From: Enteroscipio rubneri
GTDB taxonomy: Bacteria > Actinomycetota > Coriobacteriia > Coriobacteriales > Eggerthellaceae
DNA length: 64,000 nt
Direction: 5' to 3'
Assembly: GCF_002899715.1 (NCBI RefSeq)
Contig: NZ_PPEK01000002.1
Coordinates: 62,001 to 126,000 of the forward strand
Part shown: one piece after another, positions 33,963 to 43,482 of the stretch
Layout: the number at the start of each line of letters is the position of its first letter
Numbering within the stretch: position 1 is the stretch's first letter
The notes under the pieces: generated by a model
Database searches by the model: none
Seen by the model: the letters and a program-made list of their open reading frames with translations, nothing else
Told to the model about the DNA's origin: nothing
Made by a program: the position numbers and the translations under genes

Positions 33963-34043
33963 GAGGCAGTTGCGATCTTCCCACCTCAATGCCCGGTGCG
34001 AAGGCCGCATCGGTTCGTGTCGGTCAAATCAAGGAGGAATCAC

Positions 34044-36182
<2,139 letters not shown>

Positions 36183-36229
36183 GCTTAACGCCTTCTCATC
36201 TGGTTTAACGAGCCCCGGCTAATGGGCTG

Positions 36230-36268
36230 CCTCCCATTTCTCGAACTAGAGAAATGGGAGGTTTTTTT
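36230..36268 (+). terminator. Strong intrinsic terminator after hppA
   Basis: A perfect 13-bp stem (CCTCCCATTTCTC with GAGAAATGGGAGG), a six-base loop and seven T. Its 3' arm GGGAGG also sits at ribosome-site distance from the ATG of the next small ORF. Confidence 0.93.
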
Positions 36269-36427
36269 ATGGCGGAGAGGCGTGAATGGCAAATTCATGA
36301 ACTTGAACAGAAGTCTTCTCTGTCTAAAGCGTTAAACCTCTGGAAAAATCAGAAAATGAAGATGAAAAGGGATTATTTGAAAGGTAAAATCGACCATGTC
36401 GAAAGCTCATTCGCTTCAAAAAAGTGA
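36269..36427 (+). CDS. Small AT-rich ORF, unknown (52 aa)
   Basis: The ATG lies directly after the T-run of the hppA terminator. GGGAGG in the terminator stem is seven bases upstream, an ideal ribosome-site position. The product starts MAERREWQIHELEQK and is basic and Lys-rich, with KNQKMKMKRDYLKGKI in the middle; it contains no hydrophobic helix. The base composition is clearly more AT-rich than the neighbours. I do not recognise it. Its last codon overlaps the GTG of the next ORF (GTGA). It may be a real small gene, a phage remnant or chance. Confidence 0.35.
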   Translation: MAERREWQIHELEQKSSLSKALNLWKNQKMKMKRDYLKGKIDHVESSFASKK

Positions 36428-36558
36428 AGATCGAGATCGCTTCGATTTCTACGGGCGTTATGTTCTACTGGTGCGCATTTCACGGCGATTTGGATGCTGC
36501 AAGTTTGATCGATCGAAAACTTGCGAGCTACTTGTCAACGATCGAGGTGAAAAACTGA
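36424..36558 (+). CDS. Small ORF coupled to the preceding one, unknown (44 aa)
   Basis: Begins at a GTG that overlaps the stop of the previous ORF by four bases, the normal pattern of translational coupling. The 44-residue product includes ASISTGVMFYWCAFHGDL, moderately hydrophobic, then a polar end (LIDRKLASYLSTIEVKN). It has no recognisable domain. An imperfect hairpin (GCAGTCCCC with GGGGTGTCTGC) follows at about 36560. It could also be the continuation of the first ORF after a frameshift. Confidence 0.3.
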   Translation: MKIEIASISTGVMFYWCAFHGDLDAASLIDRKLASYLSTIEVKN

Positions 36559-36710
36559 AGCAGTCCCCTGGGGGTGTCTGCTGTTGATTTTGGAAAACTC
36601 GGCTGCGATCGGCAGGCCCGAACTTGGTTCCGCATCCTGCAAACGGACAAGCCGGGCTGCTGCGCAGCGCAGAGGCGAATGCTAATCGGAGATGCAAACA
36701 GGAGGATGCT

Positions 36711-38066
36711 ATGGGTGGATTGAAGGGGCTGAAGGTAGTCGACCTCACCGTGTTCGCGGCGGCGCCAGGGTGCGCGCGTCTGTTGGGCGAGCTGGGGGCG
36801 ACAGTATACAAAGTCGAGCGCGAGATCGGCGATGACCAGAGGACGCAGGGTGTGTCGTGGGGCATGAAGTTCAAGACCGATGCCGATGACGCAGCATTCG
36901 ATTGCGGCGGTTTCAACCGTAAGTGGGTTTCGTTGAACTTGAAGACCGAGAAGGGCATGGAGGTCATGATGCGCCTTCTGGCTGACGCCGACGTGTTCAT
37001 CACGAGCAATCGCACCCCGGCGCTCCGCCGCTTGGGACTTGACTACGAAACGCTCCACGAGAAATACCCTCGGCTCGTATGGGCGCAGCTGCGTGGGTAC
37101 GGCGAACGCGGCGAGATGGCCGACGAGCAGGGATTCGACGCGATAACATACGGTGCACGTGGGGGAGTAACCATGAGCTTTCCGAACGCGGGCGAGCATT
37201 TCGAGGTGGGCAACTGCCCCGTTGCTTTCGGCGATTGGAACTCCTCGAACGCGCTTGCCGTGGGCGTTTTGGCGGCGCTCTGGAACGCCGAGCGCACCGG
37301 GGTGGGGGACAAGGTGGTGACGAGCCTGTACCATGTCTCCAACTGGGGCATGATGAGCGCGATCTGCGCTCAGCAGCAGGGGCAGCCCCACCCGAAGAAC
37401 CGCGCCGAGGCTCCCTGTCCGACCAACAATAGCTACGTTACATCCGACGGCGTGTGGTTCGTGATGTGCTTCGGGAACTACAACAAGTTCCACCGCAAGG
37501 TGTTCGAGAGTATTGGAATGGATTCGCGTTACTGGGAGGATCCGGAGTACAACAGCCTCGAAGCTCTCGCTCGTAACGGCAAGAACGTCGAGGTCATCGC
37601 CGAGATGGAGCGAATCTTCAGGCAGAGGACCTGGGCGGAGTGGGAGCCGTTGCTCGTCGAGCGGGAGCTGGCGTGCGAGCGATGCCGAACGGTGGCCGAT
37701 GTCCTGGAAGATCCCGAGGCGTTCGCCAACGACCAGCTGCGTCGCGTGCAGTACGACGATCAGGGATACGGCTCCGACAACTCCTACACTGTGACCACTG
37801 CTCCCGTGCGTCTGGCGAGCCTTGGGGATCCGGTGCTCTACCGGTCTCGTCCCGTGGGCTATGACACGCGCGAGGTATTGGAGGAGCTGGGCTTCTCCAA
37901 TACTGAGATTGATGAGGCTGATGCCGAAGGAGCGGTTTGCTGCTATGCCGGTGCGCCCATGCCCGAGAGCGTGCTCGCACCCAGCTACGGCATCAGCCCC
38001 GCAAACGCCGCCGAGGCCGCCGAGATGGCAGCCGCCCGTGCGGCCGAGGAGGCGTCCTCGCGCTAG
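36711..38066 (+). CDS. Family III CoA-transferase (CaiB/BaiF-like)
   Basis: The 451-residue protein transfers CoA between carboxylic acids. Family features are the N-terminal GLKGLKVVDLTVFAAAPGCA with LLGELGATVYKVE (about 3-40), FNRKWVSLNLKTEKG, VFITSNRTPALRRLGLDYE, and VAFGDWNSSNALAVGVLAAL, whose Asp at about 175 is the likely catalytic nucleophile. The substrate is not known; family members act on carnitine, bile acids, or aryl-lactates. The AGGAGG site lies six bases before the ATG. It is convergent with an enoyl-CoA hydratase gene, 16 bases apart, which suggests related CoA-ester chemistry. Confidence 0.92.
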   Translation: MGGLKGLKVVDLTVFAAAPGCARLLGELGATVYKVEREIGDDQRTQGVSWGMKFKTDADDAAFDCGGFNRKWVSLNLKTEKGMEVMMRLLADADVFITSNRTPALRRLGLDYETLHEKYPRLVWAQLRGYGERGEMADEQGFDAITYGARGGVTMSFPNAGEHFEVGNCPVAFGDWNSSNALAVGVLAALWNAERTGVGDKVVTSLYHVSNWGMMSAICAQQQGQPHPKNRAEAPCPTNNSYVTSDGVWFVMCFGNYNKFHRKVFESIGMDSRYWEDPEYNSLEALARNGKNVEVIAEMERIFRQRTWAEWEPLLVERELACERCRTVADVLEDPEAFANDQLRRVQYDDQGYGSDNSYTVTTAPVRLASLGDPVLYRSRPVGYDTREVLEELGFSNTEIDEADAEGAVCCYAGAPMPESVLAPSYGISPANAAEAAEMAAARAAEEASSR

Positions 38067-38081
38067 CAGGCGCCTCGCTGG

Positions 38082-38870
38082 CTATCTGCCGCTCCAGGAG
38101 GGTTCGCGCTTCTCCGCGAACGCTCGCGGGCCCTCCTGCGCATCTTCGGTTGCGTTCACGAGCTCTTGGTAGCGATCCATGATCGCCCAGCCTTTGCCAG
38201 GGCATAGGTCGTTTTCGGCCGCCGCCTCCTTCATGGCGGCCTTCGAGTATTCCACGGCCAAAGGCGCGCTCTTTACGATGCCTGCGGCAAGCTTGCGTGC
38301 CGCAGGCATGAGCTCTTCTTCATCGACGACGCGGCTCACGAGTCCCCAGTCGCACGCTCGTGCCGCATCAATGTTGTCGCCCACCAGGATCAGCTCGGCA
38401 GCGTATTTATGGGGGATCTGCTGCATGAGCCGCAAGATGGCGCCGTCGCCGGTGGATGCCCGGCCGTGGCGCGCCTCCGGAAGCCCGAAGACGGAGTGCC
38501 GGCTGGCGATGGCGATGTCGCAGGCAAGCACAAGGCCCATGCCGCCGCCGACGCACACGCCGTTTACGGCGGCAATGAGCGGCTTTTTGAACGCATGCTT
38601 CGACATGCCGAGCAGCCCCCAGTCCTCTTTGCCAGGCGGCAGATGATAGGTGCCTGCAGCGAGTTCTTTCAAGTCGGCGCCTGCACAAAAGCACGTGCCA
38701 GCATTCGTGAGGATGCAGACGCGCTGCGTCGGATCGTCGTCCCAGCGCTCCAGCTCGTTGGAAAGTTCCTGCATCATGAGCGAGCTCATTGCGTTGCGCG
38801 CCTCAGGGCGGTTCAACGTGATGGTCAGCATCCCATCGCGTGCCTCGGTTCGTATCGTCTCATATGCCAT
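38082..38870 (-). CDS. Enoyl-CoA hydratase/isomerase family (carnitinyl-CoA dehydratase-like)
   Basis: A 262-residue crotonase-fold enzyme. Motifs are TLNRPEARNAMSSLM (about 18-32), CFCAGADLKELA (about 60-71), AAVNGVCVGGGMGLVLACD (oxyanion hole, about 100-118) and GLPEARHGRASTGDG (about 130-144). The second catalytic Glu of crotonases is not clear at its usual place; CaiD-type dehydratases also vary there. The substrate is unknown. GGAAGG lies about seven bases before the ATG. It is convergent with the CoA-transferase gene. Confidence 0.9.
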   Translation of the reverse strand: MAYETIRTEARDGMLTITLNRPEARNAMSSLMMQELSNELERWDDDPTQRVCILTNAGTCFCAGADLKELAAGTYHLPPGKEDWGLLGMSKHAFKKPLIAAVNGVCVGGGMGLVLACDIAIASRHSVFGLPEARHGRASTGDGAILRLMQQIPHKYAAELILVGDNIDAARACDWGLVSRVVDEEELMPAARKLAAGIVKSAPLAVEYSKAAMKEAAAENDLCPGKGWAIMDRYQELVNATEDAQEGPRAFAEKREPSWSGR

Positions 38871-39054
38871 AGCCGTTCCTTCCCCCTCGTTTGTGTCCTT
38901 TATTGTAGGTCAAGGCAGCCGACAAGGCTATGACAAGCCGGCTGCAGTTTCGGATTCGGAGTGGACCTGCGGGTCGAAAGCGGCTTGCGACGCGATCGTC
39001 CGGACTCCGGCGACCCCGCCCTGTCGTCGGTTCTCGATGCAAGGGGGTGACCCC

Positions 39055-39063
39055 GGGGGGGGG
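39055..39063 (+). repeat. G9 homopolymer at the -35 position of a cyclase promoter
   Basis: Nine G follow GTGACCCC and lie 11 bases before an extended -10 element. The tract therefore covers or abuts the place where a -35 box would be expected. A length change would alter promoter geometry. Confidence 0.5.
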
Positions 39064-39071
39064 TGCTGTTA

Positions 39072-39080
39072 TGGTATGCT
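39072..39080 (+). promoter_or_regulatory. Extended -10 promoter of the second diguanylate cyclase
   Basis: TGG followed by TATGCT is an extended -10 about 34 bases before the ATG. No -35 match exists because a G9 tract occupies that place. Confidence 0.4.
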
Positions 39081-39113
39081 GATCTTATCTGCCTTCAGAA
39101 GAAGAGGAGCTGC

Positions 39114-40670
39114 ATGGCGGAAGATTCCAGCACATCACGAGGGCGTTCGCGATTCTCGTTCAGGCGGATGGCCGTATGCGGCGTTCTGCTTGCGCTCGCT
39201 TCCGTCGTGGCCGTGTGTCTGACCGGTGCCGTTATCGCGGTGTACGATATGCAGCACGAGGCCGATGTGACGCTTGCGGCAGCCCAACCTCGCATAGAAG
39301 ACCGCATCGATGAAACGTTCAAGCTGCTCGAGACACTGTCCGAACATCCTACGCTCTCCGATCCCGACGTCGATGTCATGGAGAAGGTGAATCTGGTCGA
39401 CGCAGTGAACGAGCATTTCGGGTTCTTTTTATTGTGCTATGTCGACGAAGACATCAACGTGTGGGATGCCACGGGAGCCGCTAGCCTGGCCAGCCGTTCG
39501 CATATGCAGCGCGTGTACTCCACCGGCCAACGCTACGTCACCGACAGCTTCGTGGCGGGCGCGGACGGAACGACGCTCAACTACACCATCATCGTGCCGT
39601 TGCGCGACGAGCAGGGCGCGATGACGGGCTCGGTGTTCGCGTCCATATACTTCGACGAGATCATGGCCATGCTCGACGACAGCCTTGCCAGCTCCTATGT
39701 GAAATCCCTGGTGATCGGCGGTAAAGGGCAGGTTATGTCCGCCACTTCGGGTTTCGTGTACGACGACCCTTTCCTCGATCCTATCCGTGACTCTATCGCC
39801 TTCGGGATGACGGCCGACACCGTGCAGAGCGAGCTGCTCGCGTTGAATCCGGTGAGTTTCTGGACTGTAAACGGCTTAGATGTGAAGTACTACACGGTCG
39901 CTCCCATCGCGGAGACCGAGTGGGATGCTGTGTGCGTGACGAGTTTCTGGGAAGCCTACTCCAAGGTCATGTGGGCTATCTCTCCCCTGGCGCTTGTGGC
40001 TGTTGTCTTGATAGCCACGGCCTTCCTTATCATAAGGCGCAGCTTCATGCGGCAGATGCAAGAAGCGCGCACGTTGGAAAGGTCGGTGTCGGAACTGCAG
40101 AAGAAGCTTTATAGCGACGATCAGCCCGCCGACGCCGGCATAGCCGACATCCTCGAGCTCACTTCTTCGGGTCTTTCGGACGGCCTGACGGGCACGATGA
40201 CGCGCTCCGTGTTCGCCAGCCGTTTGCAAAACGTGCTGGAGAACGCCGACGACGGCATCTACGCACTTTGTTTCATCGATCTCGACGATTTCAAGCATGT
40301 TAACGACACGTTCGGCCATGCGACCGGCGACGTTGCACTCAAGAGCGTCGGGTACCTTCTACGGGAGTATGAGCGTCGCTACGACGGGCTGGTGGGGCGT
40401 TACGGCGGAGACGAGTTCACGCTGCTCATGACCGACTTCGACGATAGAAGCGAGCTGTATCGCGTTCTCGAGGAGCTCACGAGCAGCTTGCATGCAGACG
40501 TCCAAACCACCGGCTCCGCATTCTCGGTCCACTGCAGCGTAGGCGTGTCGGTATGGGATCATCAGGCGAGCGCAGACGAGCTCATGAAACAAGCCGACAG
40601 CGCGCTGTATCGCGTCAAGCAGCGCGGGAAGGAGTCGTTCTGCATCTACCAGGACGAGGAACGGTCATGA
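39114..40670 (+). CDS. Membrane diguanylate cyclase with extracytoplasmic sensor
   Basis: A 518-residue protein: N-terminal helix (about 18-45), an outside sensor domain of about 240 residues in the dCache style (NEHFGFFLLCYVDEDINVWD, RVYSTGQRYVTDSFV, YTIIVPLRDEQGAMTGSVFA), a second helix (about 290-310), a coiled segment and a C-terminal GGDEF domain. DGLTGTMTRSVFASRL, FIDLDDFKHVNDTFGHATGD and VGRYGGDEFTLL are intact, so it should make cyclic di-GMP. GAGGAG lies four bases upstream. The stop codon overlaps the next gene's ATG, coupling it to a degenerate GGDEF protein. Confidence 0.93.
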   Translation: MAEDSSTSRGRSRFSFRRMAVCGVLLALASVVAVCLTGAVIAVYDMQHEADVTLAAAQPRIEDRIDETFKLLETLSEHPTLSDPDVDVMEKVNLVDAVNEHFGFFLLCYVDEDINVWDATGAASLASRSHMQRVYSTGQRYVTDSFVAGADGTTLNYTIIVPLRDEQGAMTGSVFASIYFDEIMAMLDDSLASSYVKSLVIGGKGQVMSATSGFVYDDPFLDPIRDSIAFGMTADTVQSELLALNPVSFWTVNGLDVKYYTVAPIAETEWDAVCVTSFWEAYSKVMWAISPLALVAVVLIATAFLIIRRSFMRQMQEARTLERSVSELQKKLYSDDQPADAGIADILELTSSGLSDGLTGTMTRSVFASRLQNVLENADDGIYALCFIDLDDFKHVNDTFGHATGDVALKSVGYLLREYERRYDGLVGRYGGDEFTLLMTDFDDRSELYRVLEELTSSLHADVQTTGSAFSVHCSVGVSVWDHQASADELMKQADSALYRVKQRGKESFCIYQDEERS

Positions 40671-41998
40671 AACGGAAAGGCCTTCGCGGCGCTGTTGAGT
40701 TCGCGGCGTTCTCTCTTGTGGTGATTGCAGCGTGCGCTGCGCTTGGACTATTCGTTTATGGAGAAGTGGAGAACGCCCGCAGACACGATGCGGACAACGT
40801 GTTGGCTTCCTTCCAGCAGACCATTACCTTGAAGCTGCGCGGCGATCTGAGCCAGACGAGCGATTTCGTCGCCGCTCTCAAGGTGGATCCCGACGATGAA
40901 TCTTGGTTGGCCGCCTCGGCGGCCGAGTTGCTCGAACGCGACGAGGCGATCTACATGGGATACGTGGTGGACGAGACGATGCGCTATGCGTTTCCTGAGG
41001 ATCGGTTCGCCGACTTGGTGGGACGCGATCTTACCCAGTTCACCTATGTCTATACGCTTGCCAAGTGGATCGACGGATTCGTTGTCGAAGGCCCGGTCGA
41101 GCTCTCGAACGGTATGCAGGCGTTTTTGTTCATCGAACCAGTGGACGTCGATGGTGCGTATTACGGTGAGATCGCGGTTGGCTTGAAGGCGGAGTACGTC
41201 ATCGACCAGCTCGATCTTTCGATGCTTGAAGACGAAGGTTACCTCTATGAACTGTGGGCGGTCAGCCCTCAGGACGGTCGCAAAGACATCATCGCCGTTT
41301 CGAACGGGGGGCATGATTTCTCTCACGGGGCCAAGACATCCTTCGACATGCCCACCCAGTGGACGCTGTCCATCATGCCGGCAGACGGCTGGGTTCCGCA
41401 GTCGTGGATGTTCTGCATTGCGGCGTGCTCGGTCGGGTTCGCGCTGCTCGTCGTCGCCGCCGCGTTCATGGCTCTGCGCATACGCCGCATGCGCCAGCGG
41501 ATCGAAAGAGAGAAGCGCATCGACCAGGAGACGGGGATGTTCACCTACGACGGCTTTGTCGAGACGTTCGATAAGGCAGCGGGCGGCTCGGGGGAGCCGC
41601 TCACACTGATCTGCCTGATGGTGGACGATTTCGAGAAAACGGCGTTCGCCATCAGTTGGGAAGCGCGCCGCTGCTATCTGGGGAAGGCGCGCGAGGAGAT
41701 CGATGCCGTCGTGCACAGCAGCCATGTGGAAGCCCGCATCGGCAGCGGAGCCTTTGTCGTTGCCGTTCGCGAACGGATCGAAACGCATGCGCTCGCGGAC
41801 CTAATGCGCGCGCTCGAGCTGGCTCTCATGTGGAAGGTCCGCATCGACGGAAAGAAGACGTTCTGCCGCGTGCGGTCGGCGGCCGTATACTATCCAGAGG
41901 ATGGCGCCGACCTGACCGCTCTTGTGGAGCGCACGATATCGCTGCTTGAGCGCGATAAACCCGAAAGTTGCGCGCCGGCACGGAAGCGCCAAGGTTAG
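40667..41998 (+). CDS. CHASE-type membrane sensor with degenerate GGDEF domain
   Basis: A 443-residue protein translated with the cyclase before it (ATGA overlap). A helix near 10-30, an outside domain (about 35-240) with DGFVVEGPVELSNGMQAFLF and EIAVGLKAEYVIDQ typical of CHASE domains, a second helix (about 248-275), then a GGDEF-like domain. That domain keeps the opening DQETGMFTYDGFVETFDKA, but the active motif reads ARIGSGAFVVAVR where GGDEF is expected, so it should not make cyclic di-GMP. It may bind GTP or cyclic di-GMP, or modulate its partner. Confidence 0.85.
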   Translation: MKRKGLRGAVEFAAFSLVVIAACAALGLFVYGEVENARRHDADNVLASFQQTITLKLRGDLSQTSDFVAALKVDPDDESWLAASAAELLERDEAIYMGYVVDETMRYAFPEDRFADLVGRDLTQFTYVYTLAKWIDGFVVEGPVELSNGMQAFLFIEPVDVDGAYYGEIAVGLKAEYVIDQLDLSMLEDEGYLYELWAVSPQDGRKDIIAVSNGGHDFSHGAKTSFDMPTQWTLSIMPADGWVPQSWMFCIAACSVGFALLVVAAAFMALRIRRMRQRIEREKRIDQETGMFTYDGFVETFDKAAGGSGEPLTLICLMVDDFEKTAFAISWEARRCYLGKAREEIDAVVHSSHVEARIGSGAFVVAVRERIETHALADLMRALELALMWKVRIDGKKTFCRVRSAAVYYPEDGADLTALVERTISLLERDKPESCAPARKRQG

Positions 41999-42020
41999 GC
42001 TTCCTGCGCTACCGGAACCA

Positions 42021-42054
42021 CGAGAGCGGCCCGCGAACTGGCGGGCCGCTCTCG
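42021..42054. terminator. Bidirectional terminator between the GGDEF pair and gdhA
   Basis: A perfect 14-bp inverted repeat (arms begin CGAGAGCGGCCCGC) with a GAACTG loop lies between two convergent genes. The + side has a T-rich but broken tail (TATTCGCCTTGT). Confidence 0.75.
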
Positions 42055-42078
42055 TATTCGCCTTGTATTCCGCTTGTC

Positions 42079-43482
<1,404 letters not shown>

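Follow-up and report, generated by a model that had tools for sequence, protein, structure and literature searches.

What lies behind hppA in Enteroscipio rubneri, where two very small open reading frames begin at a ribosome site that is part of the stem of a terminator-like hairpin? A sequence-only reading had taken the two frames for small coupled genes whose translation may respond to read-through of the hppA terminator. Within the 64,000 nucleotides of DNA that were analysed as a whole (the window), the features that raise the question are the following.

33996 to 36182, plus strand: hppA, the upstream gene, encoding an H+-translocating pyrophosphatase (PF03030, E = 8e-259).
36229 to 36262, plus strand: terminator-like hairpin with a 14-bp stem, a 6-nt loop and a T-run after it.
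36256 to 36261, plus strand: GGGAGG, the ribosome site within the 3′ arm of the hairpin, read from the sequence.
36269 to 36427, plus strand: ORF1, 52 aa, beginning at a probable former transposase start codon, with no relatives found for its body.
36424 to 36558, plus strand: ORF2, 44 aa, with a GTG start.

We propose, with a probability of about 0.8, that this feature is a relic in which the left-end stub of an insertion sequence (IS) is joined to a 3′-terminal piece of a broken TetR gene, and that there is no two-gene unit.

The layout that had been described was confirmed. GGGAGG lies in the terminator-like 3′ arm, seven T follow at 36262-36268, and the ATG of ORF1 stands seven bases on from the motif, at 36269; the two frames overlap by GTGA, and they are AT-rich on a GC-rich background, with a GC content of 42% for 36272-36558 versus about 0.58-0.68 in 500-base windows outside this stretch. 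A scan of the window showed that only one of 28 terminator-like sites, the hairpin downstream of hppA, has a 3′ arm that feeds an ATG at ribosome-site spacing, and GGGAGGTTTTTTTATG with up to three mismatches occurred once in the window versus 0.13 occurrences expected. The leader fold is far more stable than that of shuffled sequences (z = -5.1). An Rfam search of window positions 35900-37000 at E <= 1 gave no match, nor did 12 hairpin loci at gathering scores, so that neither a known riboswitch nor an rRNA or tRNA setting was indicated.

When the intergenic DNA was compared by BLAST with 138 genomes from the bacterial family, 37 had matches, and outside the genome of the window these were limited to the hairpin and its near surroundings. 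Counting the window and 62 others, 63 hairpin places were examined. At 21 of these, the ATG that follows the T-run opens a transposase OrfA from its residue 1; one further place has a partial OrfA, nine are cut by a contig end, and 32, including the window, have no transposase downstream. The complete elements measure about 1449-1455 bp and carry TG...CA terminal inverted repeats. Their OrfB matches the NCBIfam model transpos_IS3 (NF033516, E = 9.5e-75) and has the integrase core domains PF00665 and PF13333, as expected of a DDE enzyme, and HTH domains are present in their OrfA, which is 173 aa long. In the intact relatives, OrfA and OrfB stand in a -1 relation with a CTAAAAAAATCG-type A-run between them, where a frameshift is predicted from the sequence; the length of OrfA and the A-run point, as we presume, to the IS150 group. 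Inverted repeats were present in all copies, and 3-bp duplications (TSDs) were found in 12 of 18 copies of a first sample and in 36 of 59 copies of a larger sample. On sequence homology, the hairpin, GGGAGG, the T-run and the ATG behind hppA are the left end of an IS150-like element of the IS3 family.

36223 to 36271, plus strand: probable IS150-like, IS3-family left end, comprising the terminal TG, inverted repeat, hairpin, SD, T-run and transposase start codon, assigned from BLAST, from OrfA downstream in relatives and from the end alignment.

Terminators are common and GC-rich, and about half of the similar hairpins (those 32 places) have no transposase, as would be the case if an ordinary host terminator merely resembled an IS end. 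We consider this very unlikely, because the stem sequence, the SD, the spacing and the start codon all agree with the IS end, the window left end aligns with the IS end at a score of 27 compared to a shuffle maximum of 13, and the sequence after hppA in relatives is unrelated, as described below. Among 33 distinct ungapped hairpin sequences, the number with a standard pair ranges from 28 to 33 across the 14 stem positions. Solo hairpins, which have no transposase, showed 0.067 changes per stem site versus 0.275 in the loop, in a set biased by having been found through similarity to the window hairpin. The T-run of the window stub has seven T versus CTTCTTT in the common intact copies, which suits a terminator role of the stub. 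Membership in the IS3 family concerns the left end only in the window, where no OrfA or OrfB was detected at E <= 0.2; no IS right end above chance was found in 36000-42200, and the genome gave no relative of OrfB at E <= 1e-10, in an assembly of 43 contigs from which an intact copy could be missing.

Downstream of the left end, the sequence is at least in part of another origin, and two more features are needed to describe it.

36409 to 36558, plus strand: C-terminal remnant of a TetR-family regulator gene, enclosing ORF2 (48 aa align at 60% identity with the very end of a TetR protein, E = 5.6e-17).
36418 to 36424, plus strand: AAAAAAG run at the end of ORF1, a -1 slippery heptamer of canonical form at which indels are also common.

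The match of ORF2 ends at the same C-terminus as the TetR protein of a family member, with weaker matches to others, and the intact relative of ORF2 carries a TetR_N domain (PF00440). The similarity starts at 36409, five residues ahead of the GTG, and therefore the GTG of ORF2 is an internal codon. ORF2 lacks the N-terminal HTH and has no Pfam match, and the C-terminal 48 residues alone align; compared with TetR-family regulators, ORF2 shares the C-terminus, whereas the remnant in the window has no DNA-binding domain and a frame that is broken upstream. By this similarity, ORF2 is the C-terminal scrap of a broken TetR-type regulator gene. For ORF1, no relatives were found in Pfam, NCBIfam, viral contigs, phages or genome contigs, the best PHROG match was non-significant (E = 0.13), and the frame was absent from the single other genome of the same genus that was compared. 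Three candidate origins of ORF1 were rejected: a frameshift-tolerant anchored alignment to TetR gave no signal (0.8 versus a shuffle mean of 1.8), permissive tblastn with OrfA was weak (best E = 0.027 among the matches listed, in a 611-base database), and a phage or viral origin had no relative among phages or viral contigs. We propose that ORF1 is a chance reading from the transposase start codon into foreign or decayed sequence. The two frames had been put forward as coupled genes, and as a conserved pair they did not hold up: ORF1 has no homologs, ORF2 is a fragment of a TetR C-terminus, and the homolog search with both leaves essentially neither conserved.

The heptamer A_AAA_AAG is in the frame of ORF1 at 36418-36424, immediately ahead of the ORF1 stop, and its motif class is used by IS elements, as an excerpt of PMC4066793 states. 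A -1 frameshift at this site could join ORF1 and ORF2 into one protein of 96 residues, for example a domain devoid of DNA binding that titrates a TetR partner. This is the least probable of the alternatives weighed here, because a search for the fusion in 396 genomes of the class and in genome contigs gave no relative covering ORF1, because ORF1 shows no TetR signal in the alignment above, and because A-runs are ordinary indel hotspots.

The remaining alternative for the pair is a functional micro-operon, in which read-through of the hppA terminator would lead to coupled translation of ORF1 and ORF2, and for which the ideal SD spacing and the GTGA overlap speak. As predicted by ViennaRNA, the SD has an unpaired probability of 0.0 in window RNA that arrives from upstream, and in RNA that starts inside the hairpin and so misses the 5′ arm, five of the six SD bases are unpaired with a probability of at least 0.93. 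Since the SD is closed in upstream RNA, terminator read-through should keep translation off, not on. The predicted pairing of the SD in read-through RNA, the absence of ORF1 relatives, also in the other genome of the genus, and the TetR similarity of ORF2 that starts ahead of its GTG make a micro-operon highly improbable. Among the 59 complete IS copies, which are partly non-independent as several Schaalia copies are near-identical, 54 form a hairpin of 10 or more pairs at the left end, with an SD-like motif in its 3′ arm, and 53 also have a start codon 9-21 nt after the first base of the motif. Thus, the earlier idea that the stem hides the ribosome site is supported by the predicted fold and by those 53 intact copies, in which the arrangement is the transposase leader, while the idea that translation responds to read-through was not borne out. 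In the intact relatives, RNA polymerase that leaves the host gene would stop at the left-end hairpin; any read-through RNA would have a paired ribosome site, and transposase would be made only from RNA that starts inside the IS end, at a presumed internal start. Three more distant relatives, with about 50% OrfB identity (L131, L132 and L134), have a left-end hairpin of different sequence with the ribosome site outside it, which is perhaps an earlier form of this device.

Complete copies of the IS occupy the loops of hairpins, mostly at the 3′ ends of genes. In four of five complete copies, the joined flanks rebuild a hairpin with the 3-bp duplication in its loop; the fifth has neither a duplication nor a rebuilt hairpin. 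The first sample was reduced from 30 loci to 18 by dropping those with unreliable ends (L120, L121, L130, L135, L136, L142 and L146) and those with no ends (L122, L123, L128, L133 and L137); the ends of L138 and L143 were placed by eye. In these 18 copies, the right flank of a copy was the best stem partner of its own left flank in 12 cases (about 1 expected), and 13 scored above the 95th percentile of mismatched flanks. The larger sample, from public records, had 80 loci, 59 with detectable ends and 21 without, and the 59 retain L152, L153 and L174, the ends of which are probably misplaced; the samples of 18 and 59 copies overlap in part (e.g. L119/L147 and L139/L158). Here, 33 of 59 copies exceeded the 95th percentile for mismatched flanks, among them 25 of the 36 copies that have a TSD and 8 of the 23 that have none. 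Duplex energies of the flanks are inflated by GC-rich flanks, and a stem score and a sliding control were used instead. In this strongest control, the hairpin centre was moved along each empty site, for 44 sites that represent deduplicated copies with exact 3-bp TSDs, where the TSD also served as a tie-break when ends were chosen. The best hairpin centre within 60 nt was at most 4 nt from the insertion point in 38 of the 44 sites (3.3 expected), and the mean hairpin score was 29.1 at the insertion point versus 10.4 at distances of at least 25 nt. Of 30 scored target sites of the larger sample, only 10 have a 3′ arm that is followed by five or more T within 10 bases, and therefore "hairpins at gene ends" is a safer description for all targets than "intrinsic terminators".

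The orientation of the copies is also largely uniform. The IS left end faces a codirectional upstream gene in 17 of 18 copies; in the larger sample, 47 of 59 copies are codirectional and 9 opposite, with 3 that had no call. Gene orientation was taken from a crude ORF caller. The hairpins that have no transposase and no spanning ORF follow a codirectional gene in 27 of 29 cases, 24 of them within 150 nt, in a tally that excluded beforehand those sites which lay inside a called ORF or too close to the edge of a locus. The IS would thus split the host hairpin and supply its own, with its left end toward the gene. Loop insertion and orientation could also reflect selection, with other insertions lost, instead of a choice by the transposase, as an insertion at a gene end is less harmful and a left hairpin that faces the gene would restore termination. 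We regard selection as unlikely, because a preference for gene ends would not centre the insertions on the hairpin axis as in the 38 sites above, and because IS1397 and ISKpn1 are precedents for a palindrome choice that is determined by the transposase, according to an excerpt of PMC1525189.

To place the stub behind hppA in its own locus, we compared the region downstream of the gene with other hppA loci.

36207 to 36219, plus strand: AACGAGCCCCGGC, the putative remaining 5′ arm from the original terminator of hppA, assigned by analogy with the complete copies.
36711 to 38066, plus strand: CoA-transferase family III gene downstream of the TetR remnant (PF02515, E = 1e-71).
36183 to 42015, no strand assigned: block between hppA and glutamate dehydrogenase, defined by comparison with other hppA loci.

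AACGAGCCCCGGC is followed by TAA and then by the terminal TG of the IS at 36223, and this order is the layout expected for an IS insertion in a terminator loop. For a 3′ arm that matches AACGAGCCCCGGC, no candidate above chance was found in 36285-42100 and no exact match in the same genome; in view of this negative result, loop insertion at hppA is argued by analogy with the complete copies. The block at 36183-42015 contains the TetR remnant, the CoA-transferase, an enoyl-CoA hydratase and a GGDEF protein. Ten other hppA loci were read, and their sequence 3′ of hppA is unrelated to that of the window; three of the 10 (G001, G021 and G087) have glutamate dehydrogenase sequence within the 700 nt read after hppA; the distance between the two genes in the window is 5.9 kb. 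The unrelated sequence after hppA in relatives and the distant dehydrogenase indicate that the locus is a rearranged junction with the IS stub at its edge. The IS150-like element would have entered directly 3′ of hppA, with the native terminator loop as the most likely site, and would later have decayed except for its first 50-60 bp, so that the stub now adjoins the TetR 3′ end. Today, the hairpin most likely serves as the hppA terminator, since a scan of the same strand from the end of hppA to 37205 found no other terminator-like site. At the far end of the block, 40667-41998 encodes a protein of 443 aa with no Pfam match, which follows the GGDEF gene and overlaps the gene end by 4 bases.

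Several parts of this arrangement are known from other elements. With the IS150 group of the IS3 family, the intact relatives share an OrfA of about 173 aa with an HTH, an OrfB with rve domains, an A-run between two frames, TG...CA ends and 3-bp duplications; they differ in that the 3′ arm of the left-end hairpin is the transposase ribosome site and that insertion occurs in the loops of gene-end hairpins, and the window differs in having the stub alone. An excerpt of PMC1525189 describes IS1397, ISKpn1 and ISPsy8 as IS3-family elements that insert into REP palindromes, ISPsy8 with 3-base repeats. The present IS shares the family and the palindrome insertion with these three, which target one repeated REP, whereas its own targets vary, lie at gene ends and are in many cases terminator-like. 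An exception comes from Schaalia, where six copies (L169, L170, L172, L173, L183 and L184) repeatedly interrupt a recurring palindrome with CCCCGGCCTCGT that resembles a REP-type repeat. In the IS200 tnpA leader, as outlined in an excerpt of PMC12594629, the transposase mRNA folds into a stable stem-loop that covers its ribosome site; IS200 is of another IS family and sequence, and the present hairpin is in addition an inverted-repeat end and terminator-like. Our literature search covered open-access papers, with ISfinder outside it, and gave no account of an IS in gene-end hairpin loops together with a terminator that buries its own ribosome site, which at this limited coverage is weak evidence of novelty.

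The window relic is minor by itself, and the element family is worth specialist attention. On balance, we favor a wider reading in which an IS150-like lineage of the Coriobacteriia, which has relatives in Schaalia, Actinomyces and Bifidobacterium, enters hairpin loops at gene 3′ ends with a fixed orientation and puts its own hairpin in place of the one that it splits; the left inverted repeat would be transposase binding site, terminator and ribosome-site lock at once, and stubs such as the one behind hppA would persist as host terminators. The pattern suggests a near-harmless transposon that lands where transcription ends, brings its own terminator and silences its own enzyme unless transcribed from inside. 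Host genes would in this way acquire new terminators, and the element would offer a case in which recognition of a DNA shape, the palindrome, by a transposase in place of a fixed sequence can be tested. For annotation, the odd "micro-operon" is explained as a relic, and transposon stubs can pass for small genes behind terminators. Five other hairpin places that have no transposase (L031, L095, L098, L106 and L108) are near-perfect palindromes of ~46 bp, with the IS inverted repeat (TGAAC...GTTC) at the end of either hairpin side, and these are possibly miniature elements or abutted left ends.
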